Source of the DNA: Paracoccaceae bacterium | Lineage (GTDB): Bacteria > Pseudomonadota > Alphaproteobacteria > Rhodobacterales > Rhodobacteraceae | DNA length: 47,148 nucleotides | Reading direction: 5' to 3' | Assembly: GCA_014323785.1 (NCBI GenBank) | Contig: JACONJ010000008.1 | Location: 1 to 47,148 of the forward strand | Shown here: positions 11,295 through 31,962 of the stretch, piece after piece | Layout: each line of letters starts with the position of its first letter | How positions within the stretch are numbered: the stretch's first letter is position 1 | Notes under the pieces: generated by a model | What the model was told of the DNA's origin: nothing | The model's input: the letters and a program-made list of their open reading frames with translations, nothing else | The model's database searches: none | Made by a program: the position numbers and the translations under genes

Positions 11295-12257
11295 ATGAAC
11301 AGGCAGAATCACATGACAGACACTCCCTTTGCGAAAGTGGCTCATGAAAATCTGACCCGGGCCCTTTTGAAAAAGCCCAAAAATGCGAACAAAAATCACG
11401 GCACGGGTGGCGCGGAAGGGCAGGGTTTTCGCTTTTATTGCCAGTCCTCTGAACGAATGCCGCAATGTGCCGATGGGTCGGTTGCGCTTACAGTCACGTC
11501 ACCGCCCTACTGGAACGCCATAGATTATGACATTCACGCCTGCCATGGCAGGGAAGCTTGGCATAGGGTGCGGGAGTACACGGCCTTCGGCGACAGTTTT
11601 GAGGATTACCTCAACAGCATCGCCAGGGTATTCACAGAGGTGCTGCGGGCCACACTGCCCGGCGGGTTCTGCGCAATCGTCATCGGAACAATCCTGCACA
11701 AGGGCAAACATTACCCGACACCGATGCTGATAACCGAACGCCTGTGCGGGATCGGCTGGGAGTTTCATCAGGACATCATTTGGAACAAGGTGACGGGCGG
11801 GGTGCGCCGTGCCGGGGTTTTTATTCAGAAACCTAGGGCAGGATATTACTACCCGAACATCATGACCGAATACATCCTGATATTTCGCAAGCCCGGCACC
11901 CCGCGCCGGGGTGCACAAAAGGCCATGGACATAGACGATCTTTTCACAAAAGACATTGCCAACAACGTCTGGCACATTGCCCCTGTTCCCCCCAATTCCA
12001 TCGACCATCCCTGCCCCTTCCCCAGGGAGCTGGCCCGCCGTCTGATCCTGCTTTATTCCGATGAAGGGGATGAGGTTCTGGATCCGTTTCTGGGAAGCGG
12101 GCAAACCGCCCTGGCGTCCGTCAGTCATGGGCGCCGGTGCGTTGGCTATGATATAGAGGAAAAGTATATCGCCCTTGCGCGTTCCTATATGAAGACCCCG
12201 CCCCCTTCAAGGAAATTCAACCTGATTGCCCGCTTTGAAAAGGTCGCGGGAACATGA
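11295..12257 (+). CDS. DNA methyltransferase, beta class (pair A)
   Basis: A 320-residue site-specific DNA methyltransferase. The catalytic motif TSPPYW is at residues 68-73 and the AdoMet-binding motif DPFLGSG at 263-269. That order (catalytic first) is the beta class, and SPPY is typical of N4-cytosine methyltransferases, though some N6-adenine enzymes carry it. The stop overlaps the next ORF by four bases (ATGA), so the two are translationally coupled and probably form a restriction-modification pair. The start could instead be the ATG at 11313; neither has a strong ribosome binding site. A weak promoter TTGATG-N18-TACTTT is at 11186-11215. The pair lies between groESL and phnM with no mobility gene. 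Confidence 0.85.
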   Translation: MNRQNHMTDTPFAKVAHENLTRALLKKPKNANKNHGTGGAEGQGFRFYCQSSERMPQCADGSVALTVTSPPYWNAIDYDIHACHGREAWHRVREYTAFGDSFEDYLNSIARVFTEVLRATLPGGFCAIVIGTILHKGKHYPTPMLITERLCGIGWEFHQDIIWNKVTGGVRRAGVFIQKPRAGYYYPNIMTEYILIFRKPGTPRRGAQKAMDIDDLFTKDIANNVWHIAPVPPNSIDHPCPFPRELARRLILLYSDEGDEVLDPFLGSGQTALASVSHGRRCVGYDIEEKYIALARSYMKTPPPSRKFNLIARFEKVAGT

Positions 12258-12880
12258 CGACCGCCTTCGAGCAGGAACGCCGCGCATTTGACCGCCTCCG
12301 CCTGGATTGTGCTCAGAGTGCCCAACAGGAATACGAGCTTGCCATTCAAACCCTGCTGGAGGGTTATAATACCACAATCCACGAAAATCGCTTTATCGCG
12401 GGGGGTGCAGTTAAGGTGTTCACCTATGCCCTGCTGCGTTCGGTTGGAATAGAGTGCACGCTCTACGGAGACCAAGCCAAGGCAGGGGATCTGCTCTTAC
12501 CCAATGGCGGGAAATTGTCTGTCAAAGGCAGTTTCGTAGGGGTCAAGGACGTGCGCCTTTTGAATCAGATGGGCACGGGTGAACGCAAGTGGGACACGGC
12601 AACGCTACTTGTCGTTGCGGGGGTTGGTATCGTGTTCGGCGCACCGGATATGGTTGGTCCGTCTCACCTTAAAACAACGGGGGACGCGCTGGTTCTTCGT
12701 TCACAGGGATTGCAAGGGTTGATAGACAATCCGGCCAATCTGATCGAGATGGATATTGCCCACAAACCCCCAACCGAGATGATCGGGTTCAACCACAAGG
12801 CCAGCACGGCAGTTGCGCGTCAAATCCTGTTTGAAATGCATGCCAGTGCCCTGTTGAAAGCCTTCCCTTTCACCCCCTGA
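12254..12880 (+). CDS. Candidate type II restriction endonuclease (pair A)
   Basis: I do not recognise a specific family for this 208-residue protein, but its position, coupled by ATGA to a methyltransferase, predicts the cognate endonuclease. Consistent with that, it holds a PD-(D/E)xK-like arrangement: Asp79 in QAKAGDLLL, nine residues, then Ser89-Val90-Lys91. Serine in place of the acidic residue is known in Cfr10I/Bse634I-type enzymes, where another glutamate substitutes. A glutamate-bearing helix (TIHENRF, residues 41-47) precedes it. No membrane or export signal is visible. Confidence 0.6.
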   Translation: MTTAFEQERRAFDRLRLDCAQSAQQEYELAIQTLLEGYNTTIHENRFIAGGAVKVFTYALLRSVGIECTLYGDQAKAGDLLLPNGGKLSVKGSFVGVKDVRLLNQMGTGERKWDTATLLVVAGVGIVFGAPDMVGPSHLKTTGDALVLRSQGLQGLIDNPANLIEMDIAHKPPTEMIGFNHKASTAVARQILFEMHASALLKAFPFTP

Positions 12881-16761: not shown

Positions 16762-17355
16762 TTAACAACCATCACTGCCAGAGTTAACAAAAGTCCCTGT
16801 TACTGGCAAAATTTTCTTGCCTTCTGTAAACACATTTTTACCGAGTTCACCAAGAAGTTTGGTAAAATTTTGGGTGTCTGCGTCGATACACCCGTCAAGC
16901 CCGGCAACCGCACCCTCTTGTATCTTTCGCTGGACGCTGCGGGATTCGTTATGATCTAGTGTAAGAAGATAGCATTTTGCGGATCGGTAAACCTGTTTTA
17001 GCGCAGCACCTTCCAGGTCGGCCTGCTTATATCTTTCCCGCAAAGATGTTTTGCAAGAAAGAGCGACAGGTTTAGTTCTGTGATAAAGCACTATGTCAAA
17101 ATTGGCGTTTGGCACTCGCTCAAAATTTGCCTGATGGTAGAACGGCATAACACCTTCGCGAGCCAGACACTCACAGATCAGAAACTCGAATATCCTGCCA
17201 TTTATGGAAGGCTTTGAGAGGAAAGAGCTTTCGTAAGCAGAATATGCGTCACTGATAAACTGATGCGGTTCCGGATAGTCACTTACCCCCCCCAACAACT
17301 CAGCGTAGATTTCACCGCTCTTTCCCTTGAGCAAACATCCAATTTTACTTTGCAT
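16762..17355 (-). CDS. Candidate type II restriction endonuclease (pair B)
   Basis: A 197-residue protein encoded directly downstream of, and overlapping by 73 bases, methyltransferase B. It carries a PD-(D/E)xK-like core: Asp87 in NANFDIVLY, twelve residues, then Ser100-Cys101-Lys102, followed by TSLRERYKQAD. A glutamate helix (GRIFEFLICECLAREG, about 53-68) precedes it. The acidic residue of the ExK motif is serine, as in some characterised endonucleases. Base composition is clearly more AT-rich than the neighbours, suggesting transfer. The ATG at 17355 follows GGTGGCCAGGGA. An in-frame TTG at 17388 would lengthen the overlap. Recognition sequence unknown. Confidence 0.72.
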   Translation of the reverse strand: MQSKIGCLLKGKSGEIYAELLGGVSDYPEPHQFISDAYSAYESSFLSKPSINGRIFEFLICECLAREGVMPFYHQANFERVPNANFDIVLYHRTKPVALSCKTSLRERYKQADLEGAALKQVYRSAKCYLLTLDHNESRSVQRKIQEGAVAGLDGCIDADTQNFTKLLGELGKNVFTEGKKILPVTGTFVNSGSDGC

Positions 17356-18164
17356 TCCCTGGCCACCCTTTCGCGAATCAGGCCGCAATACCTGGGTTCC
17401 AGTTCAAGACCAACGGCTTTGCGTCCGTGGGATACGGCCTCGATCAGTGTCGTGCCTGACCCGGCAAATGGATCAAACACCGTATCCCCGACAAAAGACA
17501 GCAGTTTGATACACCGCTTTGGAAGTTCGCGGGGAAATGGGGCTTCGTGGCCAATCCTTTTGGCACTTTCCCCCGGAAAAGACCACATGCCCAAAACCCA
17601 ATCCTTGAATTCATCGGCTGTAATGTCGTTGGTCCCTTGTCGTTCGCGTTTCCAGTTCTCCTTGTAAAACACCAGGATGGTTTCTACTGGGGCAATGATA
17701 TGCGGCGCACTCGCCGATTTCCAGCTGCCCCACGCCGTGCGCCGTGAGATGTTGTTCTCATTCCAGACAATGGTCGCGTGATAGTCCCACCCCACCTTCA
17801 TAGCGGTAGCCGTTATGTCAGCGGAAAGCGGGGTCTTGCCGTTCTTGTTCTTATCCAGCGCGACATTGACACACATGCGACCGCTGGGCAGGGTCCAGTC
17901 ATAGCAATTGCGCATCCAGCATTCCGAGAATTTCAGGTAATCCTTGTAGGCGCGCTGATCGTCTTGCGCCTCACCGGTATACGCCTTGCCGATGTTGTAG
18001 GGCGGCGAGGTGACAATCAGGTCCGCGAACTGCCCCCTAAATGTGGAGCGATCCGTTGTATCGCCCTGAACCAGCAGGCAGTTGGCCTGCCGCACCCACG
18101 TCAGGGTATCCGCATCGGCGTCTGTGAGGTAATCGAATTCGCGCTGTGTTCTGGCACTACACAT
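17283..18164 (-). CDS. DNA methyltransferase, beta class (pair B)
   Basis: A 293-residue site-specific DNA methyltransferase with catalytic motif TSPPYNIG (residues 52-59) and AdoMet motif DPFAGSG (231-237), again the beta order. SPPY suggests N4-cytosine methylation; N6-adenine is possible. The N-terminus (TQREFDYLTDADADTL, residues 6-21) strikingly resembles that of methyltransferase C (TQRKLDHFTDTAADTL), while the rest of the two proteins differs much more. The promoter and leader are also shared with C. Start at 18164 was chosen because it aligns with the start of C and follows GGGGGCAGAA. The endonuclease gene starts inside its last 73 bases. Confidence 0.88.
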   Translation of the reverse strand: MCSARTQREFDYLTDADADTLTWVRQANCLLVQGDTTDRSTFRGQFADLIVTSPPYNIGKAYTGEAQDDQRAYKDYLKFSECWMRNCYDWTLPSGRMCVNVALDKNKNGKTPLSADITATAMKVGWDYHATIVWNENNISRRTAWGSWKSASAPHIIAPVETILVFYKENWKRERQGTNDITADEFKDWVLGMWSFPGESAKRIGHEAPFPRELPKRCIKLLSFVGDTVFDPFAGSGTTLIEAVSHGRKAVGLELEPRYCGLIRERVARECKVKLDVCSRERAVKSTLSCWGG

Positions 18165-18190
18165 TTCTGCCCCCGGCTCGCCAAGATTCA

Positions 18191-18219
18191 AGCGTAGACA
18201 TCCGGGCGGGGTGCGTCAA
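18191..18219 (-). promoter_or_regulatory. Promoter of methyltransferase B, matching that of C
   Basis: On the minus strand TTGACG (18219-18214) and TACGCT (18196-18191) are 17 bases apart. Transcription should start about 20 bases before the ATG. From CCCGGAT just upstream of the -10 to the ATG the spacing is identical to that of methyltransferase C (35 bases between). CCCGG (18206-18202) and CCGGG (18176-18172) flank the -10 as a weaker version of the inverted repeat seen at C. Confidence 0.65.
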
Positions 18220-18409
18220 ACGCGGGGCCAACGCGCCGTGTTCGTGCACGGCCACATCCGACAGCGTCCGCTCATCCTCGAAGGCCGCACCCGCCGCGCG
18301 GGAGCCGATGGGTTCCTCACAGGTACGATTCGAACGGCCGAAGCAGTAGAGTGACGTTCATATGGCGGCGGGCGCGGCCCTTTTGTTCCGGATAAGCGAG
18401 GTTTACGGT

Positions 18410-19063
18410 TCAGCCTGGTAGCCTGGCCATCCGCAGGTAGGGCAGTTTTGTGTTGATCGCACCGTATTTCGCGATGGCGTCCCTGTCGGACACGGCCACC
18501 GGCACCACTACATCTTGGCCCGGCATCCAATTCGCGGGTGTGGCGATGTTCTCCCTGGCTGAGGTTTGCAGCGCATCCACTGCGCGCAGCACCTCGGCAA
18601 AGTTGCGGCCCACAGTCATCGGATAGGTCATGGACAGTTTCAACTGCTTGTCCGGTCCGATAACAAAGACAGAGCGCACGGTTGCACTATCAGCAGGGGT
18701 GCGCCCATCGGGCAGGCGGGCTTCGGCAGGCAGCATGTCAAAGGCTTTCGACACTTCCAGCCCGTCATCAGCGATGATTGGAAAGCCGGGTTCTGCGCCA
18801 CTTACGGCCTTGATATCGCCCTTCCATTTCTTGTGATCCTCAACCCCGTCGACGGATATGCCCATCACCTTGACACCGCGTTTCGCCCACTCATCGGCCA
18901 GTTGCGCGACAGCACCGAATTCAGTGGTGCAGACGGGGGTAAAATCCTTTGGATGGCTGAACAGAATCGCCCAGTTATCGCCAATCCAGTCATGCAGGCT
19001 GAAGCGGCCCTGATCGGTTTCAACAGTCAGGTCAGGGATGGTGTCATTGATGCGGAGAGACAT
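18410..19063 (-). CDS. Peroxiredoxin, 1-Cys Prx6 type
   Basis: Reduces hydrogen peroxide and organic hydroperoxides in the cytoplasm. The 217-residue protein has the peroxidatic cysteine, Cys45, in SHPKDFTPVCTTEFG, with the PVCTTE form typical of the Prx6 class. The long C-terminal extension of that class is present (TPANWMPGQDVVVPVAVSDRDA), ending in LPYLRMARLPG. Length is normal. Start at 19063 is preceded by AAAGGAACC; the longer upstream frame is not supported. It is divergent from the aldehyde dehydrogenase, with about 230 bases between. Confidence 0.92.
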   Translation of the reverse strand: MSLRINDTIPDLTVETDQGRFSLHDWIGDNWAILFSHPKDFTPVCTTEFGAVAQLADEWAKRGVKVMGISVDGVEDHKKWKGDIKAVSGAEPGFPIIADDGLEVSKAFDMLPAEARLPDGRTPADSATVRSVFVIGPDKQLKLSMTYPMTVGRNFAEVLRAVDALQTSARENIATPANWMPGQDVVVPVAVSDRDAIAKYGAINTKLPYLRMARLPG

Positions 19064-19294
19064 GGCGATGGTTCCTTTCGCTCTGGTTGCCGTCATTCCA
19101 CCCGGATATAGGGGATTTTTCGCGCTATTGCACCCCTTCAACCTGATTACGCGTGCAAAAAGGCGCACTGTTTTGTGATCAGACGGGCGGGCGAACACCT
19201 GTTCGCCGATATGCGCTAATGCCGGAATGCCCCTTGTGCGCACCCCGCCGCGGTGACAAACTGTTCCCCGCGATTTACAGGGAGGGGCGGGGCC

Positions 19295-20728
19295 ATGCCT
19301 GCGCAGACCGATTTTTACATTAACGGTGCCTGGGTTGCGCCACACACCACCAATCCGCTTGAAGTGATCGACCCGTCGACTGAAGAGGTTTGTGCAACAA
19401 TCTCACTGGGTGCAGAGGCCGATACCAACGCCGCCGTCGCTGCCGCCATGGTCGCCTTTGATGGTTGGGCCATCACGCCTGTGTCCGAACGCATCGCCGC
19501 GCTTGAGCGGCTGCTGACCATCTATACTGCCCGGGCCGAGGACATGGCGCAGGCGATTAGCCTAGAGATGGGTGCGCCCATCGATCTGGCCCGGCAACAG
19601 CAGGTTGCTGCCGGATCATGGCACCTGAAGGGTTTCCTGCGTGCCGCGCGGGGGTTCGCCTGGGATTACCCCTTGGGCGACTGGGCTCCGGGTGAGCGGA
19701 TTCTGCACGAACCGATTGGGGTGTGCGCCCTGATCACGCCCTGGAACTGGCCGATGAACCAGATTGTGCTGAAATGTGCGCCCGCCCTGGTGACGGGCTG
19801 TGCCATGGTGCTGAAACCGTCCGAGATTGCCCCGCTTTCCGGGCTGCTGTTCGCCGAAATGATGGATGAAGCGCAGGTTCCGCCGGGGGTATTCAACCTG
19901 GTTAATGGGGATGGTGCGGGTGTCGGCAGCCAGCTGTCTGCCCATCCTGATGTCGATATGGTCAGTTTCACTGGCTCTACCCGGGCTGGTCGGCTGATCT
20001 CCAAATCCGCCGCTGACACGCTGAAACGGGTGAGTCTGGAGTTGGGCGGCAAGGGTGCGAATATCATCTTCGCCGATGCCGGGGAGAAGGCGGTGAAATC
20101 AGGTGTCATCCGCTGCTTTCGCAACACCGGGCAATCCTGCAACGCGCCCACCCGGATGCTGGTCGAACGCAGCCGCTACGATGAGGCGGTGAAGATCGCG
20201 GCGACCACGGCCGAGGGTATAACCGTTGGCCCCGCCCACAAGGAAGGGCGTCATATCGGCCCGGCGGTAAGTGAGCTGCAATTTAACAAAATCCAGGATT
20301 TTATACAAAAGGGCCTTGATGAAGGTGCGCGGCTGGTAGCCGGGGGAACGGGCCGTCCGGAGAGCCTTAATCGCGGTTACTATATCCGCCCCACAGTCTT
20401 TGCCGATGTGACGCCGAAGATGACGATTTACCAGGAAGAGATTTTTGGCCCGGTCCTGTCGATCCTACCCTTCGAAGATGAAGATCACGCCGTCACCATG
20501 GCCAATGACACCGATTACGGGCTGACCAGTTATATTCAGACCGGCAGCCGTGATCGCCTGCGCAGGGTTGCCCGCCGCCTGCGCTCGGGCATGGTCGAGG
20601 GCAACGGCACAGGCTTCGGTCAAGGCTCGCCCTTCGGCGGCTACAAGCAATCCGGCAATGGCCGCGAAGGCGGAGCATTCGGCCTGCACGAATTCCTGGA
20701 AATCAAAGCTGTCAGCGGCTGGGACTGA
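19295..20728 (+). CDS. Aldehyde dehydrogenase family protein
   Basis: An NAD(P)-dependent aldehyde dehydrogenase of 477 residues. The general base Glu249 lies in SLELGGKG and the catalytic Cys282 in FRNTGQSCNAPTR. The NAD-binding ITPWNWPMNQ (about 147-156) and FTGSTRAG (225-232) are also present. PFGGYKQSGNGREGG near the C-terminus is typical of the family. The substrate cannot be fixed from sequence. The ATG at 19295 lies after GGGAGGGGCGGGG. It converges with the RluA-type gene. Confidence 0.93.
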   Translation: MPAQTDFYINGAWVAPHTTNPLEVIDPSTEEVCATISLGAEADTNAAVAAAMVAFDGWAITPVSERIAALERLLTIYTARAEDMAQAISLEMGAPIDLARQQQVAAGSWHLKGFLRAARGFAWDYPLGDWAPGERILHEPIGVCALITPWNWPMNQIVLKCAPALVTGCAMVLKPSEIAPLSGLLFAEMMDEAQVPPGVFNLVNGDGAGVGSQLSAHPDVDMVSFTGSTRAGRLISKSAADTLKRVSLELGGKGANIIFADAGEKAVKSGVIRCFRNTGQSCNAPTRMLVERSRYDEAVKIAATTAEGITVGPAHKEGRHIGPAVSELQFNKIQDFIQKGLDEGARLVAGGTGRPESLNRGYYIRPTVFADVTPKMTIYQEEIFGPVLSILPFEDEDHAVTMANDTDYGLTSYIQTGSRDRLRRVARRLRSGMVEGNGTGFGQGSPFGGYKQSGNGREGGAFGLHEFLEIKAVSGWD

Positions 20729-20828
20729 TTGCCTTGCTGAGCTTCGGGCCCGCCTTCGTGTTTCGGGCATATCCCCGCCGGGTCGCTGTACATCGGGCGG
20801 TAAGCTCCCGGCCACGAACCAATCGGCC

Positions 20829-21479
20829 CTAGAACGGCACCCGTGCCTTTACCGTTATGTCGCGCCCGCCATCGGGATGGTTCACCCGCAAGGCTTCCGC
20901 ATGCAGCATCAGCCGGTCATAGCTGTGCGCCGACCCGTTGGCATAGAGTGTATCGCCCAAGATCGGGTGCCCGATCTCGCGCATATGAACGCGCAACTGA
21001 TGCGACCGGCCGGTCCTGGGCATCAGGCGAACACGGGTGGTTGCGTCCTCGATCCGCATTCGATACCATTCGGTCCGGGCGGGTTTGCCCGTATCCCAAT
21101 CGACCTTTTGCAAGGGCCGGTTTGGCCGATCCACGATCAGGGGCAGATTGATCTGGCCCTTCGGCTCTGTCACCTCCCCCCAGACCCGCGCGGCATAGGC
21201 CTTTTTGACCTTTCGTGCCTCAAACTGATGGCCCAGATGGTGTTGCGCCTGAGGGCTCATGGCAAAGACCATGACGCCCGAGGTGTCCATGTCCAGCCGA
21301 TGCACCAGAAGTGCCTGGGGAAACGCTGCCCGCACCCGGCTAAGCAGGCAATCGGCCAGGTGAGCACCCCGGCCCGGAACGCTCAGCACTCCGGCGGGCT
21401 TGTTCACGAACAGAAGCGCGTGATCCTGAAACAGGATATCCAGGAGCCCGTCCGGCGGGCAATACTTCAACACCTGCAC
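20829..21479 (-). CDS. RluA-family pseudouridine synthase
   Basis: Isomerises uridine to pseudouridine in rRNA or tRNA. The 216-residue protein has the catalytic loop HRLDMDTSG (about residues 60-68) and a C-terminal RTGRSHQLRVHMREIGHPILGDTLY, both RluA-class hallmarks. It lacks an S4 RNA-binding domain, like the short RluA form. The start used is GTG at 21479, giving the usual lead-in to LFVNKPAGVLSVPG; no strong ribosome binding site is visible. Confidence 0.88.
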   Translation of the reverse strand: MQVLKYCPPDGLLDILFQDHALLFVNKPAGVLSVPGRGAHLADCLLSRVRAAFPQALLVHRLDMDTSGVMVFAMSPQAQHHLGHQFEARKVKKAYAARVWGEVTEPKGQINLPLIVDRPNRPLQKVDWDTGKPARTEWYRMRIEDATTRVRLMPRTGRSHQLRVHMREIGHPILGDTLYANGSAHSYDRLMLHAEALRVNHPDGGRDITVKARVPF

Positions 21480-21815
21480 CGAATCCCACTTGGATACCCA
21501 TCAGTACGTTCTGCGCGATCATCATGATCAGGACGAAGGTTGTAAAGAACATCCCCCGGCGTACCGGTTTATCTTTGGGTGGGCGAAGCCATTACCCGAT
21601 TTCGCCCAGGAAGGTGAATGGTCCGGAAGAAGGCTGCCCGGTCTGTTCCCCGGCCCAGACAGGCAGCGTGAAGCAAGCCGGTCATTCTTTCCCCCACCTG
21701 CACATCACACACCTCGATCAGACGCGACAACCTTACCCAAATCAATAAGGGCTTTGGACCCCAGCAAGGAACGACGCGCGGCGTCTATACGCCTGGTTGC
21801 CCCGGTTGATCCCGT
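21480..21815. other. Gap between the RluA-type gene and ccr, with a small hydrophobic frame
   Basis: No established gene. On the minus strand an ATG at 21552 opens a frame that begins with a hydrophobic helix (FFTTFVLIMMIAQNVLMGIQVGFG) and then runs out of frame across the start of the RluA-type gene to 21340. It could be a small membrane protein or leader peptide; the region after the helix looks like a shadow of the downstream gene. The remainder, to the ccr stop at 21816, shows nothing I can name. Confidence 0.3.
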
Positions 21816-23108
21816 TTACCCCACTGGCCCGGCCTCCAGCACATCCTCCAGCGTCCGGAGACCCGTGCGGGGGGCCTGGACCAGCACCGCCATATTGCCG
21901 GGTTTATGCGCGTTCCGGCGCATTTTCATATGCGCCTCGGGCAGTTCGGCCCAGGGGAACACCTCGGACATGCAGGGATCCAGCCGCCGGTCCAGCATCA
22001 ATTTGTTTGCTGCCGCTGCATGTTTCAGATGTGCAAAATGAGAGCCTTGCAAGCGTTTCTGGTGGCTCCACATATGGCGCACGTCAAAGGTGCAATTATA
22101 GCCCGAGGTGCCAGCGCAGATCACCACCATGCCGCCGCGCTTCACGACGAAGGTGGAAACGGGAAAGGTGGCCTCGCCCGGGTGTTCAAAGACCATATCA
22201 ACGTTCACACCTTTGCCGGTGATGTCCCAAATCGCCTTGCCGAATCTGCGAACCTCGCCGAACCATTCACTGTAGGCATCGGTACCCGCTTCCGGCAGGC
22301 GACCCCAACAGTTGAAATCCTTGCGGTTGATAACGCCTTTGGCCCCCAGGTCTATGACGAAGGTGCGCTTATCCTCATCAGAGATCACGCCGATCGCATT
22401 GGCACCTGCGGTGTTGATGAGCTGGATCGCAAAGGATCCCAAGCCCCCCGACGCACCCCAAACCAGCACGTTCTGCCCCGGTTTCAGGTCATGCGGTTCA
22501 TGGCCGAACAGCATCCGGTACGCGGTAGCAAGCGTCAGCGTGTAGCACGCCGATTCCTCCCAGGTCAGGTGACGGGGCCGAGGCATAAGCTGCTGCGCCT
22601 GGACACGGGTGAATTGCGCAAAACTGCCATCAGCGGTCTCATAGCCCCAGATGCGCTGTGAGGGGGACAGCATCGGGTCGCCGCCATTGCATTCCTCATC
22701 ATCACCGTCGTCCTGGTTGCAGTGGATCACAACCTCATCCCCCGTCTTCCAGCGTGTCACCCGCTCCCCCACGGCCCAGACAATGCCCGCAGCGTCCGAG
22801 CCGATGACGGCATAGGGGGCCTTGTGTTGCAGAAAAACCGAGGAGGGTTTGCCCAGACACGCCCAGACGCCATTGTAATTCACGCCCGCGGCCATCACCA
22901 GAACCAGAACATCGTGGCTGCCGGGCTTCGGCGTGTCAATCACCTCAACCTTCAGTGCCTCGGTCGGTTCGCCATGGCGTTCCTGGCGCAGAACCCAAGC
23001 ATACATTTGCTTTGGTATATGGTTCGGGGCGGGCATCTCACCCACCTTGTAGAGGTCTTTCTTCGGCACATCGTCGGCAGTGATGGCCGCGTTCTGGTCA
23101 GGCACCAT
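21816..23108 (-). CDS. ccr: Crotonyl-CoA carboxylase/reductase
   Basis: Key enzyme of the ethylmalonyl-CoA pathway for assimilating acetyl-CoA without a glyoxylate bypass: it reductively carboxylates crotonyl-CoA to ethylmalonyl-CoA with NADPH. The 430-residue medium-chain-reductase protein shows the family-specific insert CNQDDGDDEECNGGDPMLSPSQRIWGYE (about 131-158). The nucleotide-binding VWGASGGLGSFA (about 215-226) and GYNCTFDVRHMWSHQKRLQGSHFA (about 340-363) follow. Start at 23108 follows GGAGG at a 5-base gap; the upstream TTG is ruled out. Neighbours on the same strand are an acyltransferase and an EEP protein, with ecm divergent beyond them. Confidence 0.96.
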   Translation of the reverse strand: MVPDQNAAITADDVPKKDLYKVGEMPAPNHIPKQMYAWVLRQERHGEPTEALKVEVIDTPKPGSHDVLVLVMAAGVNYNGVWACLGKPSSVFLQHKAPYAVIGSDAAGIVWAVGERVTRWKTGDEVVIHCNQDDGDDEECNGGDPMLSPSQRIWGYETADGSFAQFTRVQAQQLMPRPRHLTWEESACYTLTLATAYRMLFGHEPHDLKPGQNVLVWGASGGLGSFAIQLINTAGANAIGVISDEDKRTFVIDLGAKGVINRKDFNCWGRLPEAGTDAYSEWFGEVRRFGKAIWDITGKGVNVDMVFEHPGEATFPVSTFVVKRGGMVVICAGTSGYNCTFDVRHMWSHQKRLQGSHFAHLKHAAAANKLMLDRRLDPCMSEVFPWAELPEAHMKMRRNAHKPGNMAVLVQAPRTGLRTLEDVLEAGPVG

Positions 23109-23221
23109 AAGAACCTCCAACGCTTTGCGGATGCCGTACGGCGGGATACGCTGTGTTCAGAACCAAGGATTAGACCGGATCGCGCAGCAATGCAAAGGGC
23201 GATATGCGGTCTGGTACCATG

Positions 23222-24637
23222 TTATGCAGCACCTTCCGCCGTGGAATTGGCCAGTGCCGCGGCGGCGGCGGGCGGTGCGTCAAGAAGATGCGCGATAGAG
23301 GCCGCGTAGAAGCGGGCGATGCCCTGACCTCCCTCGGTCAGGGTCAGATGTTCGCCTTCTTTTGCCAGCACCCGACGGTCTGCCAGCACCCGAAGGGTAC
23401 CCCGAATGGTGTCATCCAGGTCACCGCCCGGGGTGTGCAGGGCCCTGCCTTCTGCCTGCAGCCGCTTGACCAAGCTGCCGACGGCCTCTTTCAGGTCAGC
23501 ACTGGTCCCGGCCCCCCGGGTAAGGGCATAGGCCACCAGGGGCACGGGCAGCACGGGCATGACGGCACCGATCTTTTGCATCAATTCATCCCCCAGGGCG
23601 GTAGGGGGATCGCCGTGCGGCTGGTCCAGGAACATCGTCAAGCTGAGCGGTTGGCCAAAACTGACGGCGGCATAACCGTAGCGGTGGATTTGGCCGGTGA
23701 TCCGCAGCCGGATGCGTTGCAGCAGGCCGCACCAGAACGGCCAAAGGCGAAAACGGAAACGGCGGGTGCCGTTGGCATGGGCCTCGATCAGCGTCCGGTC
23801 CTCTATCACCCGGTCGTAATTTAGTGCCACGGGCACAAAGACTACATCGCGGCTTTCACCGGGCGTGAAGCCGTCAAGGATACAGGAGATCAGGCCAGTC
23901 TTCGGCTTGCCAAGCGCACCGGTTCGGCTGAGCCCGCCTTCGGGAAAGACGGCCTGTGTCACGCCCGCCTCGGTCGCCATTTGGACGTAGCGGGCCAGCA
24001 CCGTGCGGTAGAGCGCGTTGTTGTGGCGGCGGCGGATGAAATAGCCGCCCATCGCGCGAATAAGCTGGCGGAGCGGCCAGACCCGCGCCCACTCCCCCAC
24101 CGCGTAGGCCAGTGCCGAGCGTTCGGCGGCAAGCCATGTGACCAGCACATAATCCATGTTAGAGCGGTGGTTCATCACGAAGATCACTGTCGCCTCCGGA
24201 TTGATCACCTCCAGTGCGGCATCATTGGCCTGGACCAGCCGCACGTGGTAGAGCGACTGGCTAAGGAACCTTGCGGCGCGGATCGCGAAGCCGAAATAGG
24301 TGAAGGCAGAGAAGCCTGGCACGATCTCGCGCGCGTAGTGCGCCGCTTTCTCCGAGGCGACATCTTCGCGGATGCCGTTTTCCCTGGCGTATTCAACAAC
24401 CGCCCGGGCTACTTCGGGATCATAGGTCAGCCGCAGGATCGTGTCATTCCGGCGCGCCAGTTTGAAGGGCTGGATCGGCGTCTTCAACCGCGCATTCAGC
24501 CGCTCAACCGCGCGTTCAAGGCGACGGCGCAGGAACCAGCGGACCGAGGGTACCAGAACGTTATTAAGTGCCGCCACCGCCGCAAAGGCGAGGATCAGAA
24601 GCAAGGCCCAAAGCGGCAGTTCGACGGTGGTCATCAT
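23222..24637 (-). CDS. Glycerol-3-phosphate 1-O-acyltransferase-like protein
   Basis: A 471-residue membrane-associated acyltransferase. It has an N-terminal membrane helix (about residues 8-30), the acyltransferase motif NHRSNMDYV with His157 and Asp162, FIRRRHNNALY, and the substrate-binding FPEGGLSRTG (231-240). These match the PlsB-type glycerol-phosphate acyltransferase family, which makes lysophosphatidate for phospholipid synthesis. At 471 residues it is much shorter than E. coli PlsB (about 807). It follows ccr's start by 113 bases on the same strand and so lies upstream of ccr in transcription. The start could be either of two adjacent ATGs. Confidence 0.85.
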   Translation of the reverse strand: MMTTVELPLWALLLILAFAAVAALNNVLVPSVRWFLRRRLERAVERLNARLKTPIQPFKLARRNDTILRLTYDPEVARAVVEYARENGIREDVASEKAAHYAREIVPGFSAFTYFGFAIRAARFLSQSLYHVRLVQANDAALEVINPEATVIFVMNHRSNMDYVLVTWLAAERSALAYAVGEWARVWPLRQLIRAMGGYFIRRRHNNALYRTVLARYVQMATEAGVTQAVFPEGGLSRTGALGKPKTGLISCILDGFTPGESRDVVFVPVALNYDRVIEDRTLIEAHANGTRRFRFRLWPFWCGLLQRIRLRITGQIHRYGYAAVSFGQPLSLTMFLDQPHGDPPTALGDELMQKIGAVMPVLPVPLVAYALTRGAGTSADLKEAVGSLVKRLQAEGRALHTPGGDLDDTIRGTLRVLADRRVLAKEGEHLTLTEGGQGIARFYAASIAHLLDAPPAAAAALANSTAEGAA

Positions 24638-24694
24638 CGCCCGTGACCTTGGCAGGAAATCGGGGCCAGCGCAATATCGGGCGGGTGCAGGGTC

Positions 24695-25855
24695 TTACCG
24701 CGGCAGGGTCACGTCTATCCAGACCAGACGGTGATCGGAAGCACTGATCAGGTCTGCGCCCTCCTCTCCTGGGGCAGGCCAGAAGACACCAGCATCCGTC
24801 AGGCCGAGCGTGGCGGAGGGCAGAACGTAATCGACCCGCAAGTTGCCTGGTGCCTCATCCCCGAAATCGGCGGTGTCGAAGGTCGGGTTGCCCTGATGGC
24901 TGTCATTTGCCTGCCCCTGGGCCAGGGCCGCGGCAAGGCCACCGCGACTGCCTGGTGTCAGGCTGGTGTTGATGAGTGGCAAGTCCAGCAGTTGACGTGC
25001 CGCACCGGGAAAACTGTCGCCATCAAACGGATCTGCGTTCAGATCGCCCGCAACGATGAAATGTGCGCCCTTGGTCAAACTACCCGTGGCACCCGCATCG
25101 TCCTGGATATACGCCGCGCCTTGCACGTAATCGGCCCAGAACCGGATTTCATCAGCGTTGCGGGTGCCGTTGCGATCCTCGGGCCCATCGAAAACCGGCG
25201 GGGTTGGGTGACTGGCCAGAAGGTGGATGACCTGATCCCCAACGCGTATCGGCACATCCCAATGGCTTTTGGACGACAGGCGAAAGATATTGATCGCCTC
25301 GGGCCCGTAATAGGGCGTGCCGTTTTCATTCATCGGCAGGCGGGCATCCGGCATGTCGGCCCACCGGAAGGTTTGGAAGCGGCGGACCCGATCAGTAAGA
25401 ATCTCATGGCGCGACAGAACGAGCATGCCAAACTGGCCCGGAAAGAAGCCAAACCCGAAAGCGTCGTTTGCGTATTCGATGCGCCCCGGTGCTGTCGCGA
25501 CATGCCCGTCGGCATTGATGTCTACCCCGCTGGCAAGCCCGGTGTTGGAAGGTGCGATGTAATAATACGTATAGCCCGCCTCGGCCAGGTAATTGGCCAA
25601 AAAGAGCGCGGGTGCAGCGGGGTCGTAATCGAACTCATTGATCAGCAGGATATCCGGGCTGACCAGGGTGATGATCTCGGCCACTTGGGTGATCTGCGGA
25701 TCAGTGCCACCATCCAATGCCGCCAGGAGTGCGTTGGCCTCACCCCGGCTCATCGAGGCATTGAACTGTGCGATGCGGATGTTCTGGGCCATGGCGGGCA
25801 GTGCCAGGATGGTGGCCAAGGCGTAGGCGATGGCAAGAACGGTACGGTTGGTCAT
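24695..25855 (-). CDS. Secreted endonuclease/exonuclease/phosphatase (EEP) family protein
   Basis: A 386-residue exported protein with a signal peptide (hydrophobic residues 6-20, cleavage expected after AMA at 21-23). It has the EEP fold: RIAQFNASM at the first strand, LLINEFDYD with the metal-binding Glu, HFIVAGDLNADPFDGDS (about 263-279), and SDHRLVWIDV at the end with the catalytic His. The family cleaves phosphodiesters or phosphomonoesters in DNA, inositol phosphates or lipids; the substrate here is unknown. Periplasmic or extracellular location suggests nutrient scavenging. It is divergent from ecm with about 155 bases between. Confidence 0.85.
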   Translation of the reverse strand: MTNRTVLAIAYALATILALPAMAQNIRIAQFNASMSRGEANALLAALDGGTDPQITQVAEIITLVSPDILLINEFDYDPAAPALFLANYLAEAGYTYYYIAPSNTGLASGVDINADGHVATAPGRIEYANDAFGFGFFPGQFGMLVLSRHEILTDRVRRFQTFRWADMPDARLPMNENGTPYYGPEAINIFRLSSKSHWDVPIRVGDQVIHLLASHPTPPVFDGPEDRNGTRNADEIRFWADYVQGAAYIQDDAGATGSLTKGAHFIVAGDLNADPFDGDSFPGAARQLLDLPLINTSLTPGSRGGLAAALAQGQANDSHQGNPTFDTADFGDEAPGNLRVDYVLPSATLGLTDAGVFWPAPGEEGADLISASDHRLVWIDVTLPR

Positions 25856-26011
25856 GACGACCCCCTTTCAAGGCGCGATCATGCTTTCTTAATACTATCA
25901 GATCAACGGTGACAGGGTGATGACATTGACAAGGGCAGATTATTTCCGATACGCTAAAGCCTTGTGGAATAATTCTTGAAATAAACGTGCCGAATCCGGA
26001 GGGTGCCGCCC

Positions 26012-27976
26012 GTGACTGCCCAAAAAGACCGTCCTTGGCTGATCCGTACCTATGCGGGCCATTCCACCGCCGCGACCTCTAACGCACTTTATCGGGACAA
26101 TCTGGCGAAGGGTCAGACGGGGCTCAGCGTGGCCTTCGACCTGCCGACGCAAACGGGCTATGACAGCGACCATCCACTTGCGCACGGCGAGGTCGGCAAA
26201 GTGGGTGTGCCAGTCAGCCATCTGGGCGATATGCGGAGGCTGTTTGATCAGATCCCCCTGAAGCAGATGAATACCTCGATGACGATCAACGCGACCGCGC
26301 CCTGGCTTCTGTCGCTTTATATTGTGGTCGCCGGTGAACAGGGGGCTGATATCGCCGGACTGCAGGGTACGGTACAGAACGACCTGATCAAGGAATACCT
26401 CAGCCGTGGTACCTATATCTGCCCACCAAAGCCCAGCCTGAAGATGATCGCGGATGTGGCAGAGTATTGTTACGCCGAGATTCCGAAATGGAACCCGATG
26501 AATGTGTGTTCCTATCACCTGCAAGAGGCGGGCGCGACGCCTGAACAGGAACTGGCCTTTGCGCTGGCCACGGCAATGGCGGTGCTGGATGAGCTGAAGC
26601 CGCGCGTCGATCCGGCGGATTTCCCGGCCCTGGCGGGGCGGATTTCCTTTTTTGTGAATGCGGGCATCCGCTTTGTCACCGAAATGTGCAAGATGCGCGC
26701 CTTTGTCGATTTGTGGGATGAAATCTGCGCCGAACGATATGGGGTGGAGGATCCGAAATACCGCCGCTTTCGTTACGGGGTGCAGGTCAATTCCCTTGGC
26801 CTGACCGAACAGCAGCCGGAAAACAACGTCCATCGCATTCTGATCGAGATGTTGGCCGTGACGCTGAGCAAAAAGGCGCGCGCGCGCGCGGTGCAGCTCC
26901 CCGCCTGGAATGAGGCACTTGGCCTGCCGCGGCCCTGGGATCAGCAGTGGTCCATGCGGATGCAGCAGATCATGGCCCATGAGACCGATCTGCTGGAATA
27001 CGGCGATCTGTTTGACGGCAACCCGGTAGTGGCCGCGAAAGTCGAGACCCTGAAGAACTGCGCACGGGCGGAATTGGCGAACCTGGAATCCATGGGCGGG
27101 ACGATTGCTGCCATCGATTATATGAAAGGCCGGTTGGTAGAGGCCAATGCCAGCCGTATCAACGCCATCGAACAGGGCGAAACTGTCGTGGTGGGTGTGA
27201 ACAGGTACACCGCAAGTGAAACCTCACCCTTAATGCAGGCCGATGGCGGAATTCTGGTAGTGGATCCGGCGGTAGAGGCTGACCAGGTTGCCCGGCTGAG
27301 GGCGTGGCGGGCCGAACGTAATGAGGCGGCGGTGGCCAAGGCCCTGGCCGAACTGCGCAGGGCGGCAGCCACGGGCCGGAACATCATGCCGCCCTCGATC
27401 ACGGCGGCCAGGGCGGGCGCAACCACTGGTGAATGGGCCGGAGAGATGCGCGCCGTTTACGGGGCATACCGCGGGCCCACGGGTGTGTCCAGCAGCCCGT
27501 CGAACAGGACCGAGGGTTTGGATGATATCCGCGCTGCGGTTAATGCCGCCAGCGACAGCCTGGGGCGTCGGCTGAAATTTCTGATGGGCAAACCGGGATT
27601 GGACGGGCATTCAAACGGTGCGGAACAAATCGCCTTTCGCGCACGGGATTGCGGAATGGACATCGCCTATGAAGGTATTCGCCTGACTCCGGCGGAAATC
27701 GTTGACGCGGCGAAAACAGAACAGGCGCATGTCATCGGCCTTTCGATCCTGTCGGGCAGCCATGTGCCGTTGATCAGGGAGGTGATGGACCGCATGCGCC
27801 GGGACGGGATGGATCATGTGCCGGTGATTGTCGGCGGGATCATTCCCGATGACGACGCCGAAACATTGCGTGCGCTTGGCGTTGCGAAAATATACACGCC
27901 AAAGGACTTTGAGCTGAACAGAATTATGATGGATATCGTTATATTGGCCACCCCACCCGCACTTGCGGCGGAATAA
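26012..27976 (+). CDS. ecm: Ethylmalonyl-CoA mutase
   Basis: Coenzyme B12-dependent carbon-skeleton mutase converting (2R)-ethylmalonyl-CoA to methylsuccinyl-CoA in the ethylmalonyl-CoA pathway. The 654-residue single-chain protein starts with RPWLIRTYAGHSTA and the barrel signature GLSVAFDLPTQTGYDSDHP. It ends with a B12-binding domain carrying Asp531-x-His533-x-x-Gly536 in GLDGHSNGAEQ. Start choice: GTG at 26003 touches the GGAGG (25998-26002) with no spacing, whereas GTG at 26012 lies 9 bases away and gives the expected N-terminus. The distinction from methylmalonyl-CoA mutase rests on overall similarity and the presence of ccr nearby. Confidence 0.94.
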   Translation: MTAQKDRPWLIRTYAGHSTAATSNALYRDNLAKGQTGLSVAFDLPTQTGYDSDHPLAHGEVGKVGVPVSHLGDMRRLFDQIPLKQMNTSMTINATAPWLLSLYIVVAGEQGADIAGLQGTVQNDLIKEYLSRGTYICPPKPSLKMIADVAEYCYAEIPKWNPMNVCSYHLQEAGATPEQELAFALATAMAVLDELKPRVDPADFPALAGRISFFVNAGIRFVTEMCKMRAFVDLWDEICAERYGVEDPKYRRFRYGVQVNSLGLTEQQPENNVHRILIEMLAVTLSKKARARAVQLPAWNEALGLPRPWDQQWSMRMQQIMAHETDLLEYGDLFDGNPVVAAKVETLKNCARAELANLESMGGTIAAIDYMKGRLVEANASRINAIEQGETVVVGVNRYTASETSPLMQADGGILVVDPAVEADQVARLRAWRAERNEAAVAKALAELRRAAATGRNIMPPSITAARAGATTGEWAGEMRAVYGAYRGPTGVSSSPSNRTEGLDDIRAAVNAASDSLGRRLKFLMGKPGLDGHSNGAEQIAFRARDCGMDIAYEGIRLTPAEIVDAAKTEQAHVIGLSILSGSHVPLIREVMDRMRRDGMDHVPVIVGGIIPDDDAETLRALGVAKIYTPKDFELNRIMMDIVILATPPALAAE

Positions 27977-28099
27977 TGCCAGTTTCCAAAGTAGACATTC
28001 CCTAGGGTTGTTTCGTAAAGGTAAGTCCCGGGTGTTCAAGGGTTGCATCGACTCGATTCGATGTGTAGAAACGCCCAGTGTGAGTAAATGGAGAATTCT

Positions 28100-28432
28100 A
28101 TGGCACTTAATCTGGACGCAATGTCGCGCGATGAACTGATGAATCTGCGCAAGAGCGTGGATGCAGCTCTGAAGACTCTGGATAAACGCAAAAAGAAAAA
28201 GGCTCGGGCCGCTGTAGAACAGACAGCACGGGAACATGGCTTTTCTCTGAATGATATTCTGGGCACGAAAAAGGCAAACGGATCGAAGAAAAAGTCAAGC
28301 CCCTCGAAATCCCCGCCCAAATACGCCAATCCGGCGGATTCTGGCCAAACCTGGACCGGGCGCGGGCCGAGGCCCGGCTGGTTCAGGGACTGTCTGGCCA
28401 AAGGGAAGACGCCGGAGGATATGGCGATTTAG
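28100..28432 (+). CDS. H-NS family nucleoid-associated protein
   Basis: A 110-residue DNA-binding protein. It has an N-terminal helical oligomerisation segment (DELMNLRKSVDAALKTLDKRKKKKARAAVEQ, about 11-41), a basic linker, and a C-terminal H-NS domain with TWTGRGPRPGWF (84-95), whose GRGPRP core inserts into the minor groove of AT-rich DNA. Such proteins organise the nucleoid and often silence transferred genes. The ATG at 28100 has GGAG 7 bases upstream, so the ATG at 28088 is not preferred. An inverted repeat CATCGA-N6-TCGATG (28046-28063) lies between a possible TTGCAT -35 (28043-28048) and TAGAAA -10 (28066-28071), suggesting autoregulation. deoD begins 9 bases after its stop. Confidence 0.87.
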   Translation: MALNLDAMSRDELMNLRKSVDAALKTLDKRKKKKARAAVEQTAREHGFSLNDILGTKKANGSKKKSSPSKSPPKYANPADSGQTWTGRGPRPGWFRDCLAKGKTPEDMAI

Positions 28433-28441
28433 GACGCGTCG

Positions 28442-29221
28442 ATGACCATTCACATCGGTGCCACGCCTGGTGAGATTGCCGGGACTGTCCTGATGCCCGG
28501 TGATCCCTTGCGGGCGAAATGGGCGGCGGAGGCTTTCCTTGATAATCCGGTCTGCGTGAATGAGGTGCGCGGGATGCTGGGCTTTACTGGTACCTGGCGC
28601 GGCAATCATGTGACGATCCACGGCTCGGGCATGGGCATGCCAAGCCTGTCAATCTATGCCAATGAGCTGATCCGCGATTATGGCGCACACACGCTGATCC
28701 GTATCGGTTCCGCTGGCGGGATGCAGCCCCATGTGAAGCTGCGCGATGTGGTTCTGGCGATGACGGCTTCCAGCGTTTCGACCCCCTCTCGCGGGGTGTT
28801 CAGGGAGCTGCAGTTCGCCCCCTCTGCCGATTGGGGGCTCCTGCGGGCGGCGGCAGCAGCAGCAGAGCGGACCGGCACCGACGTGCATGTGGGCGGGATT
28901 TATTCCTCTGACGTGTTCTATGATGAGCGGCCCGATATGAATGAACAGATGGTGCGGCACGGGATTCTGGCGGTAGAGATGGAGGCAGCGGAACTTTATA
29001 CGCTGGCGGCGCGCTATGGTCGCCGTGCGCTGGCCATTCTGACGATCTCTGACCATTTACAGACTGGTGAGGCCATGCCATCCGAGGTACGGCAATCGGG
29101 CTTTTCGGATATGGTGGGCATCGCCCTTCGGGCGGCCTTTGCCGGGACAGCCCCTTCCACGGGGGATCGTGGGAAAATGCAGCCGCCTCTGGACATTCCT
29201 CCCAGCACATCAGACTTGTGA
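28442..29221 (+). CDS. deoD: Purine-nucleoside phosphorylase (DeoD type)
   Basis: Cleaves purine nucleosides with phosphate to base and (deoxy)ribose-1-phosphate. The protein carries [10 protein letters not shown] (phosphate loop), [26 protein letters not shown], and TISDHL with the catalytic Asp. DeoD normally ends shortly after the helix that here reads [13 protein letters not shown]. This protein runs about 23 residues further (a proline/serine-rich tail ending PPSTSDL), making it 259 residues against about 239 in E. coli. The tail directly abuts the pair C island, so the original stop may have been replaced by inserted DNA. An inverted repeat TGACAGGC-N17-GCCTGTCA begins at the stop codon (29219-29251). 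Confidence 0.9.
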
Positions 29222-29307
29222 CAGGCCTCACTGCTGCCTGTAAGCCTGTCATAAAGCCCGCTTGTGGCCACCAGAGGCGCATGGGCACCGCATTCTACAT
29301 AACAACG

Positions 29308-29336
29308 TTGAACATCCCTGCCCGGATTGCTACGCT
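29308..29336 (+). promoter_or_regulatory. Promoter of methyltransferase C
   Basis: TTGAAC (29308-29313) and TACGCT (29331-29336) are 17 bases apart. The expected transcript starts about 20 bases before the ATG at 29363. The -10 hexamer, spacer length and leader match those of methyltransferase B. Confidence 0.65.
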
Positions 29337-29355
29337 TAAAATTCTGCAATCCGGG
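29321..29355 (+). promoter_or_regulatory. Perfect 10-bp inverted repeat spanning the -10 of methyltransferase C
   Basis: CCCGGATTGC (29321-29330) and GCAATCCGGG (29346-29355) flank 15 bases that include the -10 element and the expected start of transcription. Because the left arm lies upstream of the start site, the repeat should act as DNA, that is an operator, and not as an RNA hairpin. Binding by the methyltransferase itself or by an unknown controller would give autoregulation. Confidence 0.6.
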
Positions 29356-29362
29356 GGCAGAA

Positions 29363-30502
29363 ATGCGCACCGTCGTAACCCAGCGCAAACTCGATCACTT
29401 CACGGATACCGCCGCTGATACCCTGGCGGGGGGGCGGCGGGCCGGAGACAGTCCGGTACACACAGGTTTGGTGCAGGGCGATGTTCTGGATGTACTGGCC
29501 AGAGTGCCGGACGACACAAAATTTGACGTGGTCATCGCTGACCCGCCCTACAACATCGGCAAGGATTTCGGGAACGACTCTGACAGCCGCCCGATGGCCC
29601 AATACGTGGAATGGTCCGAGGCATGGATCGCACGCTGCCTTGATCTCCTGGCACAGGGCGGCATCCTCTATATCTACGGCTTCCCGGAAACGCTGGCCCA
29701 CCTGGCTGTCAGATACCCCTTGGAAAGCCAGCACTGGCTGGCCTGGCATTATACCAACAAGGCAGTCCCAAAGGCCAGGTTCTGGCAAAGGTCGCATGAG
29801 AGCATTCTTTGCCTCTGGCCCCTTGGCCGGCCAAGGCCCGTGCTGGAGGTGGACCAGATCAGGGAACCTTACACCGACACCTACCGGAAGAACGCTGTAG
29901 GCAAGGTGCGCACGGGGACGGACTCCCGTTTCGGCGGCAGGAACGGCAGGGAAACCCTCTACAAGGATCATGGCGGGGCACTTCCGCGGGATATCCTGAA
30001 GGTTCCCGCCCTGGCTGGCGGGGCAGGTGCCGCTGAGCGCTGGTTCAAATGCTATGATTGCGGCGGCATGGTGTTCCCGCCGCAGCAGGCAAAGCACCAT
30101 CGGGGCCACACCACAATGAAGCACCCGACGCAAAAGCCCATGGAACTGACCCGACGGCTGATTAGATCCCGCATCACCGGCAACCGGGGCAGACTAATGG
30201 TTCCGTTTGCCGGGTCCGGGTCGGAATGCGTTGTGGCGATGGACATGGGTATTGACTGGCTGGGGATTGAGATCAATCCTGAGTATGTGGATTTCGCACG
30301 GCAATGGATGGGATATGTATCGTCTGACCGCCAGAATGGTGCAGCACCTCGAGCAGGATCTAAGGCAATACCACGCCCTGTTCACAGGGGGCCGCTGCCA
30401 GGGCTGGGAGATGGAAGAACTGCTTGTGCGGGCGATCAGGGCGGACACAAGCGCGGGCCATCACCCCGTGTGGAAAGAAGCCGGACACGACGGCCAGGCT
30501 GA
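29363..30502 (+). CDS. DNA methyltransferase, N6-adenine type, beta class (pair C)
   Basis: A 379-residue DNA methyltransferase with catalytic motif DPPYN (residues 60-64), typical of N6-adenine enzymes, and PFAGSG (281-286) as AdoMet motif, with KHPTQKP (253-259) before it. An inserted segment with Cys230, Cys233, His245, His246 and His249 could bind zinc. The last 60 or so residues, after ARQWMGYV, are out-of-frame reading of the endonuclease gene and look random (arginine, glycine and proline rich). The true protein may therefore end near residue 319, or the stop was lost by a frameshift. Start at 29363 follows GGGGGCAGAA; the open frame from TTG at 29327 is not preferred. Confidence 0.85.
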   Translation: MRTVVTQRKLDHFTDTAADTLAGGRRAGDSPVHTGLVQGDVLDVLARVPDDTKFDVVIADPPYNIGKDFGNDSDSRPMAQYVEWSEAWIARCLDLLAQGGILYIYGFPETLAHLAVRYPLESQHWLAWHYTNKAVPKARFWQRSHESILCLWPLGRPRPVLEVDQIREPYTDTYRKNAVGKVRTGTDSRFGGRNGRETLYKDHGGALPRDILKVPALAGGAGAAERWFKCYDCGGMVFPPQQAKHHRGHTTMKHPTQKPMELTRRLIRSRITGNRGRLMVPFAGSGSECVVAMDMGIDWLGIEINPEYVDFARQWMGYVSSDRQNGAAPRAGSKAIPRPVHRGPLPGLGDGRTACAGDQGGHKRGPSPRVERSRTRRPG

Positions 30503-30905
30503 TATTCGTATCCGCACCAACGGCAAGGTCTGGCCCGTGAATGTCAAGTCCGGGAAAATCCGCAGGGAATCGCTTGTTCTGTCAGGCCACCGCCTGGGAA
30601 GGTTCCAGGGGGATTTCGGTGCGATCAGCGATTACCTGAACACCCCCGTCGCCGACATAATTGCCGTGCCGCACGAAGCCCGCGAGGATGCAACGGGACG
30701 GCACCACATCTACACAACCCTCTATATCCCGAAAGAGATGCTCCAGGGCGCAGACGCAACCCGATGGGAACGGCAAGGGGCGCAATACATCCAAACCAGC
30801 GACAAAAGTGTGCTTTTCTCCCTGCGTCCGGCAATGAGCTGGCAAATCTGGTGGACAATTCCGATCCGGGGGCTCGTTTCTGAACGGGCCTTGCAAATCA
30901 CCTGA
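30315..30905 (+). CDS. Candidate type II restriction endonuclease (pair C)
   Basis: A 196-residue protein starting inside the methyltransferase C frame (overlap 188 bases). It shows a PD-(D/E)xK-type core: a helix with Glu35 (WEMEELLVRAIRADT), Asp63 in GQADIRIRT, twelve residues, then Asn76-Val77-Lys78 in VNVKSGKI. Asparagine in place of the acidic residue is known in MspI. The C-terminus (RGLVSERALQIT) is encoded by a 55-bp sequence that recurs 1047 bases downstream. Start: ATG at 30315 is preceded by GGATGGGAT; the open frame extends to 30207 but that part is methyltransferase shadow. Confidence 0.72.
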   Translation: MYRLTARMVQHLEQDLRQYHALFTGGRCQGWEMEELLVRAIRADTSAGHHPVWKEAGHDGQADIRIRTNGKVWPVNVKSGKIRRESLVLSGHRLGRFQGDFGAISDYLNTPVADIIAVPHEAREDATGRHHIYTTLYIPKEMLQGADATRWERQGAQYIQTSDKSVLFSLRPAMSWQIWWTIPIRGLVSERALQIT

Positions 30906-30915
30906 CCCGGTGGGC
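30861..30915 (+). repeat. 55-bp direct repeat, copy 1
   Basis: This copy covers the last codons and stop of endonuclease C plus 10 bases. It matches copy 2 (31908-31962) at 52 of 55 positions; all three differences are T here against C there. The repeats bound a 1-kb two-gene cassette. Confidence 0.9.
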
Positions 30916-31398: not shown

Positions 31399-31902
31399 AT
31401 GTCGTTCAGGGCTCTTTTTGACCACGTACAGGGCATCTCACTCCACGTGAAGCGGAACGATATAAGAGACAAAATAGTCGAACTGACCGGGGTTGACAAA
31501 ATTGCTTTTGTCCGCTCCGGCCTCGATACGTCCATTTGCCGCGGATACTGGATTACGCCGCAAAACCGTGACCACCCTTCTGTAATGATGCACCTCTTTG
31601 ATACAGAGGAGCAGAAAGTCAGGGGTGCCGAAGCGATGAATAAGCTTTTGGCTGAATTTTTATCATCTTCATCGCCGAAGGTTCCGTTCAGCCCTCAGTT
31701 TGCATCCGAAATTGATTCATTCTGGCAAGCACTGGCAGTGCTCTGCCCGCAGACGTTCAGAGAGCGGTTTCGGAAAGAATTGGATCAGGGCAAAACAGAT
31801 CATTACGGGATTGCCCTAAAGCTCCGCATACCGGAAGCATACGTGCCCAGGCTATTTGAAGATCGCTTTGACGAATGGCTTTCATCCAAGGGGTGTATTT
31901 AA
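31399..31902 (+). CDS. Protein of unknown function, second gene of the cassette
   Basis: I do not recognise this 167-residue protein. It is soluble, with mixed charge, an N-terminal part (FRALFDHVQGISLHVKRNDIRDKIVELTGVDKIAFVRSGLDTS) and a C-terminal helical part (RERFRKELDQGKTDHYGIALKLRIPEAYVPRLFEDRFDEWL). Histidine, aspartate and arginine are scattered without a clear known motif. The ATG at 31399 follows the upstream stop by 3 bases, with no strong ribosome binding site of its own, so translation is probably coupled. It ends 5 bases before copy 2 of the 55-bp repeat. It could be the toxin or effector of a small module. Confidence 0.7.
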   Translation: MSFRALFDHVQGISLHVKRNDIRDKIVELTGVDKIAFVRSGLDTSICRGYWITPQNRDHPSVMMHLFDTEEQKVRGAEAMNKLLAEFLSSSSPKVPFSPQFASEIDSFWQALAVLCPQTFRERFRKELDQGKTDHYGIALKLRIPEAYVPRLFEDRFDEWLSSKGCI

Positions 31903-31907: not shown

Positions 31908-31962
31908 CCGACCCGGGGGCTCGTTTCTGAACGGGCCCTGCAAATCACCTGACCCGGCGGGC
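31908..31962 (+). repeat. 55-bp direct repeat, copy 2
   Basis: Near-identical to 30861-30915 (52 of 55). Read in frame, it would encode the same C-terminus as endonuclease C (RGLVSERALQIT and stop). Recombination between copies would remove the cassette and leave the endonuclease gene intact. Confidence 0.9.

Follow-up and report, generated by a model that had tools for sequence, protein, structure and literature searches.

Methyltransferase gene C is probably a chimera, produced by recombination with a B-type gene, in which the catalytic body of one methyltransferase family carries a front end, approximately 130 nt long, homologous with that of methyltransferase gene B, which belongs to another family. 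Both genes lie in the 47,148-nt stretch of DNA analyzed here (the window; Table 1). The host bacterium is likely from a marine sponge; the window appears to belong to GM7ARB1, listed in a table of PMC7313196 as a member of the Rhodobacteraceae whose sponge host is Lamellodysidea herbacea (Guam). In the same table, GM7ARB2 and GM7GCV1 have the same GM7 prefix and are assigned to host clade III.

Start region shared by two methyltransferase genes

The start regions of B and C form one ungapped block of 128 nt with 75% identity (29316-29443 versus 18084-18211; E value of 3.5e-17 in a BLAST search of the whole genome). The similarity is wider than first described, as it takes in the upstream region, the start codon, and approximately 26 codons. 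Beyond the 5' end of the block, identity falls to 0.1 to 0.35 (20-nt windows), and the -35-like TTGA marks the extreme upstream edge. Within the leader (positions -53 to -1), 39 of 53 nucleotides are identical between B and C, compared with 30 of 53 at the next-best site in the window. Several details given in the earlier note were reproduced exactly. The distance from CCCGGAT (29321-29327 in B, 18206-18200 in C) to the ATG is 35 nt in both genes, and the identical 15-base stretch CCGGGGGCAGAAATG (29351-29365 in B, 18176-18162 in C) has its sole exact copies in the genome at these two places. The likeness claimed for the first residues was also upheld, with a peptide alignment score of 57 against a mean of 17.7 and a maximum of 41 for 5,000 shuffles of the C N-terminus.

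Table 1. Positions of the two methyltransferase genes, their predicted partners, and the shared block within the window
Feature	Position	Strand	Remarks
Shared block, copy B, including -35-like hexamer	29308..29443	+	128 nt at 75% identity to copy C; -35-like TTGAAC 29308-29313; 17-nt spacer; -10-like TACGCT 29331-29336; palindrome arms 29321-29330 and 29346-29355; ATG 29363; first 26-27 codons
Shared block, copy C, including -35-like hexamer	18084..18219	-	Profile score 117.9 bits in genome; -35-like TTGACG 18219-18214; 17-nt spacer; -10-like TACGCT 18196-18191; ATG 18164; first 26-27 codons
Methyltransferase B (PF01555, DPPYN)	29363..30502	+
Methyltransferase C (PF01555, TSPPYN), likely chimera	17283..18164	-
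Predicted endonuclease partner of B	30315..30905	+	Overlaps B frame; role predicted from position
Predicted endonuclease partner of C	16762..17355	-	Weak RE_BsaWI match below curated cutoff
Stretch similar to DPPFN-type methyltransferase genes elsewhere in the genome	18235..18333	-	68.7% over 99 nt to L030; 71% over 80 nt to L035

Both proteins match PF01555 (E values of 1.1e-29 for B and 5.9e-41 for C) as well as the MTase_II models of PADLOC. The candidate endonuclease of C matches RE_BsaWI weakly (E value of 1.7e-4; 22.0 bits versus a curated cutoff of 26.2), and that of B matched no Pfam or PADLOC model, though homologous sequence also follows the B ortholog in GM7ARB2. The arrangement of an M gene followed by an overlapping predicted R gene on the same strand is that of type II restriction-modification (R-M) systems with beta-class N6/N4 methyltransferases (PF01555); the two units would not differ in kind from these, their one unusual feature being the front end of C. 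The B frame extends beyond the end of its 322-aa GM7ARB2 ortholog (30330-30502), and its overlap with the R gene is larger than in GM7ARB2.

The earlier note also held that the catalytic domains differ. A tree of the bodies of 30 proteins (16 of the C family and 14 of the B family, picked from 240 listed) bears this out at the level of families, which were split by a single branch with 100/100 support and a length of approximately 10 changes per column. The distinction is not complete, as both are PF01555 proteins and their genes also have in common an identical 22-nt patch at PPYNIGK; the patch of C occurs in similar form in other methyltransferase genes. Among the proteins listed, the nearest relative of C is P0002 (74%), and the nearest relatives of B are P0122 in GM7ARB2 (81%) and P0123 in GM7GCV1 (72%). 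The front end and the body of C have different nearest relatives.

Distribution of the block

The 2.55-Mb genome (2,553,113 bases in 59 contigs) contains exactly two copies of the block, located before B and C. A third copy, with approximately 73 to 74% identity to copy B, precedes the B ortholog of GM7ARB2 (L092), where the hexamers read TTGAAT-N17-TATGCC and the coding part has two gaps (3 columns and, at the end, 2 columns). The homology of the B module in GM7ARB2 covers 29301-30909 of the window (80.5%). A profile built from any two of the copies recovers the third (E values of 4.1e-28, 1.8e-21, and 2.2e-20). The block was absent from the relatives of C compared and from GM7GCV1, in which the 72% relative of B has another leader. 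The block would accordingly be younger than the split of the B and C bodies, unless the GM7GCV1 gene lost it.

Sequences could be cut at the core for 115 of the 120 listed C-family proteins and 105 of the 120 listed B-family proteins. None of the 114 C-family N-termini other than that of C resembles B (scores of 26 or less, versus 57 for C, or 53 when C is cut in the same manner as the others). Scored against C, the B-family N-termini gave 57 for B itself, 32 for P0122, and 28 for the next. At the DNA level, relatives of C (E value of 1e-40 or better in 385 genomes of the class) were found at 6 places in 5 other genomes, and all lacked the block (best score of 4.2 bits, versus 135.3 for C). 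The 25 plasmid and phage matches to C that were listed, out of 722 records, start no earlier than residue 24, as would be expected of a foreign front. The separate families, the 114 C-family N-termini without the block, and the B ortholog that carries it support the earlier proposal that a start region was reused in front of different methyltransferases.

Besides its own copies, BLAST of the block against 295 family genomes returned two short hits (24 and 26 nt) in other genomes; the block had no match in plasmids and phages, its pattern was absent from viral contigs, and no close relative of C was confirmed in the latter. A 39-residue peptide from the block matched only its own sequence in 385 genomes of the class. 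A protein database search with residues 1 to 40 of C returned only C, although that search, based on short exact words, is insensitive and missed B itself. When 394 family genomes and 148 relatives of GM7ARB2 were scanned with the profile, no additional copy emerged. Matches of 18 to 22 bits occurred in 10 of the 394 family genomes, and these were taken as noise because none adjoins a B- or C-type methyltransferase frame. Likewise, no such frame adjoins the two short BLAST matches or any of the 17 places in the genome that differ from the 15-mer by one or two bases, 11 of which were also read directly.

In an all-against-all comparison of methyltransferase genes, the other strong 5' matches among those listed were between genes with homology in their bodies as well. 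Another mosaic pair was noted among DPPFN-type genes, L009 (C27) and L014 (C2), with 96.4% identity over the first 252 nt compared and 77.8% over the whole proteins. The window also contains a third M gene and a following gene of unknown kind (11295-12880) after groEL, with the M protein 81% identical to one in GM7ARB2, and a GmrSD_N protein at 36065-37897; the block was absent from both places. A 92-nt inverted repeat (75%) lies at 8850-8941 and 47053-47144, and its frames resemble GGTITLNGVDHTALTADDF-type repeats.

Conservation of the block

The earlier note offered as one possibility that B and C descend from one family in which only the front is under strong selection. The comparison of B with L092 contradicts this, because identity is lower in the block (leader, 41/55; coding part, 52/72) than in the body (85.5%). 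The coding differences between B and C are distributed over codon positions 1, 2, and 3 as 9, 6, and 7, without bias. Given the lower conservation and the unbiased codon positions, strong selection on a remnant of a common ancestor does not account for the block. Distances among the three copies are roughly the same (leader identities of 75, 75, and 65%); the columns invariant in all three number 33 of 55 in the leader and 42 of 77 in the coding part (13, 13, and 16 by codon position). From these sequence comparisons, the block looks like a drifting piece of common origin rather than a specially conserved one.

Putative regulatory signals

The TTGAxx-N17-TACGCT arrangement described in the earlier note is present in both genes; its designation as a promoter is putative. 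The hexamers fit the sigma-70 consensus at 7 (B), 8 (C), and 7 (L092) of 12 positions, and a promoter scan called no promoter at the B or C leader. With so low a match and no call by the scan, "promoter" is an assumption, and the assignment is weak. The 10-bp palindrome arms pair perfectly in B and at 7 and 8 of 10 positions in C and L092, respectively, without compensating changes. As a common feature, an RNA hairpin in the leader was rejected: folding beats shuffled sequences only in B, and there only with the left arm included (z score of -2.14), and is no better than shuffles in C (0.56, with the arm) and L092 (0.88).

It is unlikely that the block is a regulatory cassette under selection, through which a common regulator, or one of the two methyltransferases acting at paired CCNGG sites, would set both R-M systems together. 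The same block at both genes, the perfect arms in B, and the CCNGG kept on both sides of the -10-like hexamer in all three copies, even though the middle base changes in L092, are in its favor, and control that depends on methylation or on the N-terminus is known in other R-M systems (such as M.SsoII; PMC3978073). However, the arms decay without compensation, the RNA folds better than shuffles only in B, conservation in the leader does not exceed that in the coding part, and the tail encoded by the block is unstructured in the models. Some regulator may act on both B and C. The block did not behave as one upstream site placed before many R-M genes, since it occurs at 2 genes versus 32 PF01555 matches in the genome. 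Such matches are abundant in these genomes (32 in 2.55 Mb here, 31 of them over the cutoff; 25 in 2.6 Mb in GM7ARB2; 31 in 1.9 Mb in GM7GCV1), some being pieces of one gene.

As a guide to the possible target of C, site avoidance was computed on 113,914 bases of the genome; the values were 1.02 for CCSGG, 0.94 for WCCGGW, 0.83 for CCGG, and 0.81 for CCWGG. The low values for GCCGGC (0.49) and CCCGGG (0.66) in the same bases point to no one enzyme, as the genome has some 30 methyltransferases.

Junctions and direction of the proposed exchange

In the predicted structures, pLDDT is under 50 at residues 1 to 22 of C and 1 to 25 of B, and the first core strand begins at residue 29 (C) or 35 (B). 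On the upstream side of the C block, the DPPFN-like stretch (Table 1) stops 12 to 23 nt short of it. Six genus relatives lose homology to the window at 18403-18426, just past the peroxiredoxin gene, and at 29124-29143, where deoD ends; the stretches compared contain no B- or C-like sequence, which fits the insertion of both units. The deoD-like gene before the B unit (28442-29221) encodes a C-terminus unlike that of the genus relatives. A 55-nt direct repeat (95%; 30861-30915 and 31908-31962) brackets a gene at 31399-31902 that follows R here but in GM7ARB2 stands before M; the window copy is shorter by approximately 80 nt. As a candidate cassette site, the repeat was found elsewhere as one copy in GM7ARB2 and one 17-nt match.

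For a chimeric C, the front end would come from the B lineage, in which it is seen twice; this direction is one that we infer, because three copies cannot be rooted. The exchange may have occurred during the movement of R-M modules between bacteria inhabiting one sponge. The join would fall in the poorly structured N-terminal tail just before the catalytic core, a position at which exchange would be tolerated. With its new front, C would have gained upstream signals, a start codon, and a ribosome-binding region that were all functional beforehand in a related host, and both genes would then be switched on alike.

The reverse event, in which the body and endonuclease of a B-type R-M unit at the C site gave way to those of C, or a third gene as the source of both fronts, is quite improbable. 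The about equal distances among the three copies and the rearranged islands, as seen in the displaced gene at 31399-31902, are compatible with either version. Against both, island C holds no remnant of a B-type endonuclease, as it matches island B only in the block, the PPYNIGK patch, and six stretches of 17 to 23 nt, and the profile found no further copy in the family genomes or the relatives of GM7ARB2. That B and C are old paralogs, with the front end as the residue of their similarity, is highly improbable, since, despite the PF01555 domain and motif order that they share, their bodies are far apart in the tree while the block is similar in DNA without third-position bias, the GM7GCV1 relative of B lacks it, and the block would need to evolve far more slowly than the body, whereas between the B orthologs it is the faster.

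Relation to known systems and implications

Horizontal regulatory transfer is the exchange of upstream regions between bacterial genes. The likeness to the present case lies in an upstream region placed before a nonnative gene; here, however, the piece extends through the start codon and 26 codons, it joins different families, and its promoter function is putative. Recombination is described in PMC3077401 and PMC3983042 as swapping parts of methyltransferase or specificity genes; in the domain movement treated there, recognition domains move and specificity changes, whereas here the expression end and the tail would have moved. According to PMC3978073, residues 1 to 71 of M.SsoII serve R-M autoregulation. 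M.SsoII is similar in having an N-terminal extension and a palindrome near the gene start, but the extension considered here spans approximately 26 residues that the model leaves unstructured, and only one of the three copies has a perfect palindrome. Among the papers listed in literature searches, no title or opening of an abstract described a start region common to methyltransferases of different families, which is not proof of absence. Module exchange among R-M systems is already known; what would be new here is a front end swapped between methyltransferase families.

A broader conjecture, and an improbable one, is that sponge bacteria with very large R-M arsenals trade a portable start module, consisting of upstream signals, a ribosome-binding region, a start codon, and a floppy peptide tail, by which new bodies would come under resident control, and that methylation by C or B of the paired CCNGG sites around the -10-like hexamer would couple the two systems.

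C would thus represent an R-M gene whose expression end, rather than its recognition domain, passed between families. A common leader in R-M genes need not imply common regulation, and here it fits the descent of a recombined piece. If the block holds a working promoter, it would offer a newly arrived methyltransferase a route to immediate expression and hence to protection of its new host.
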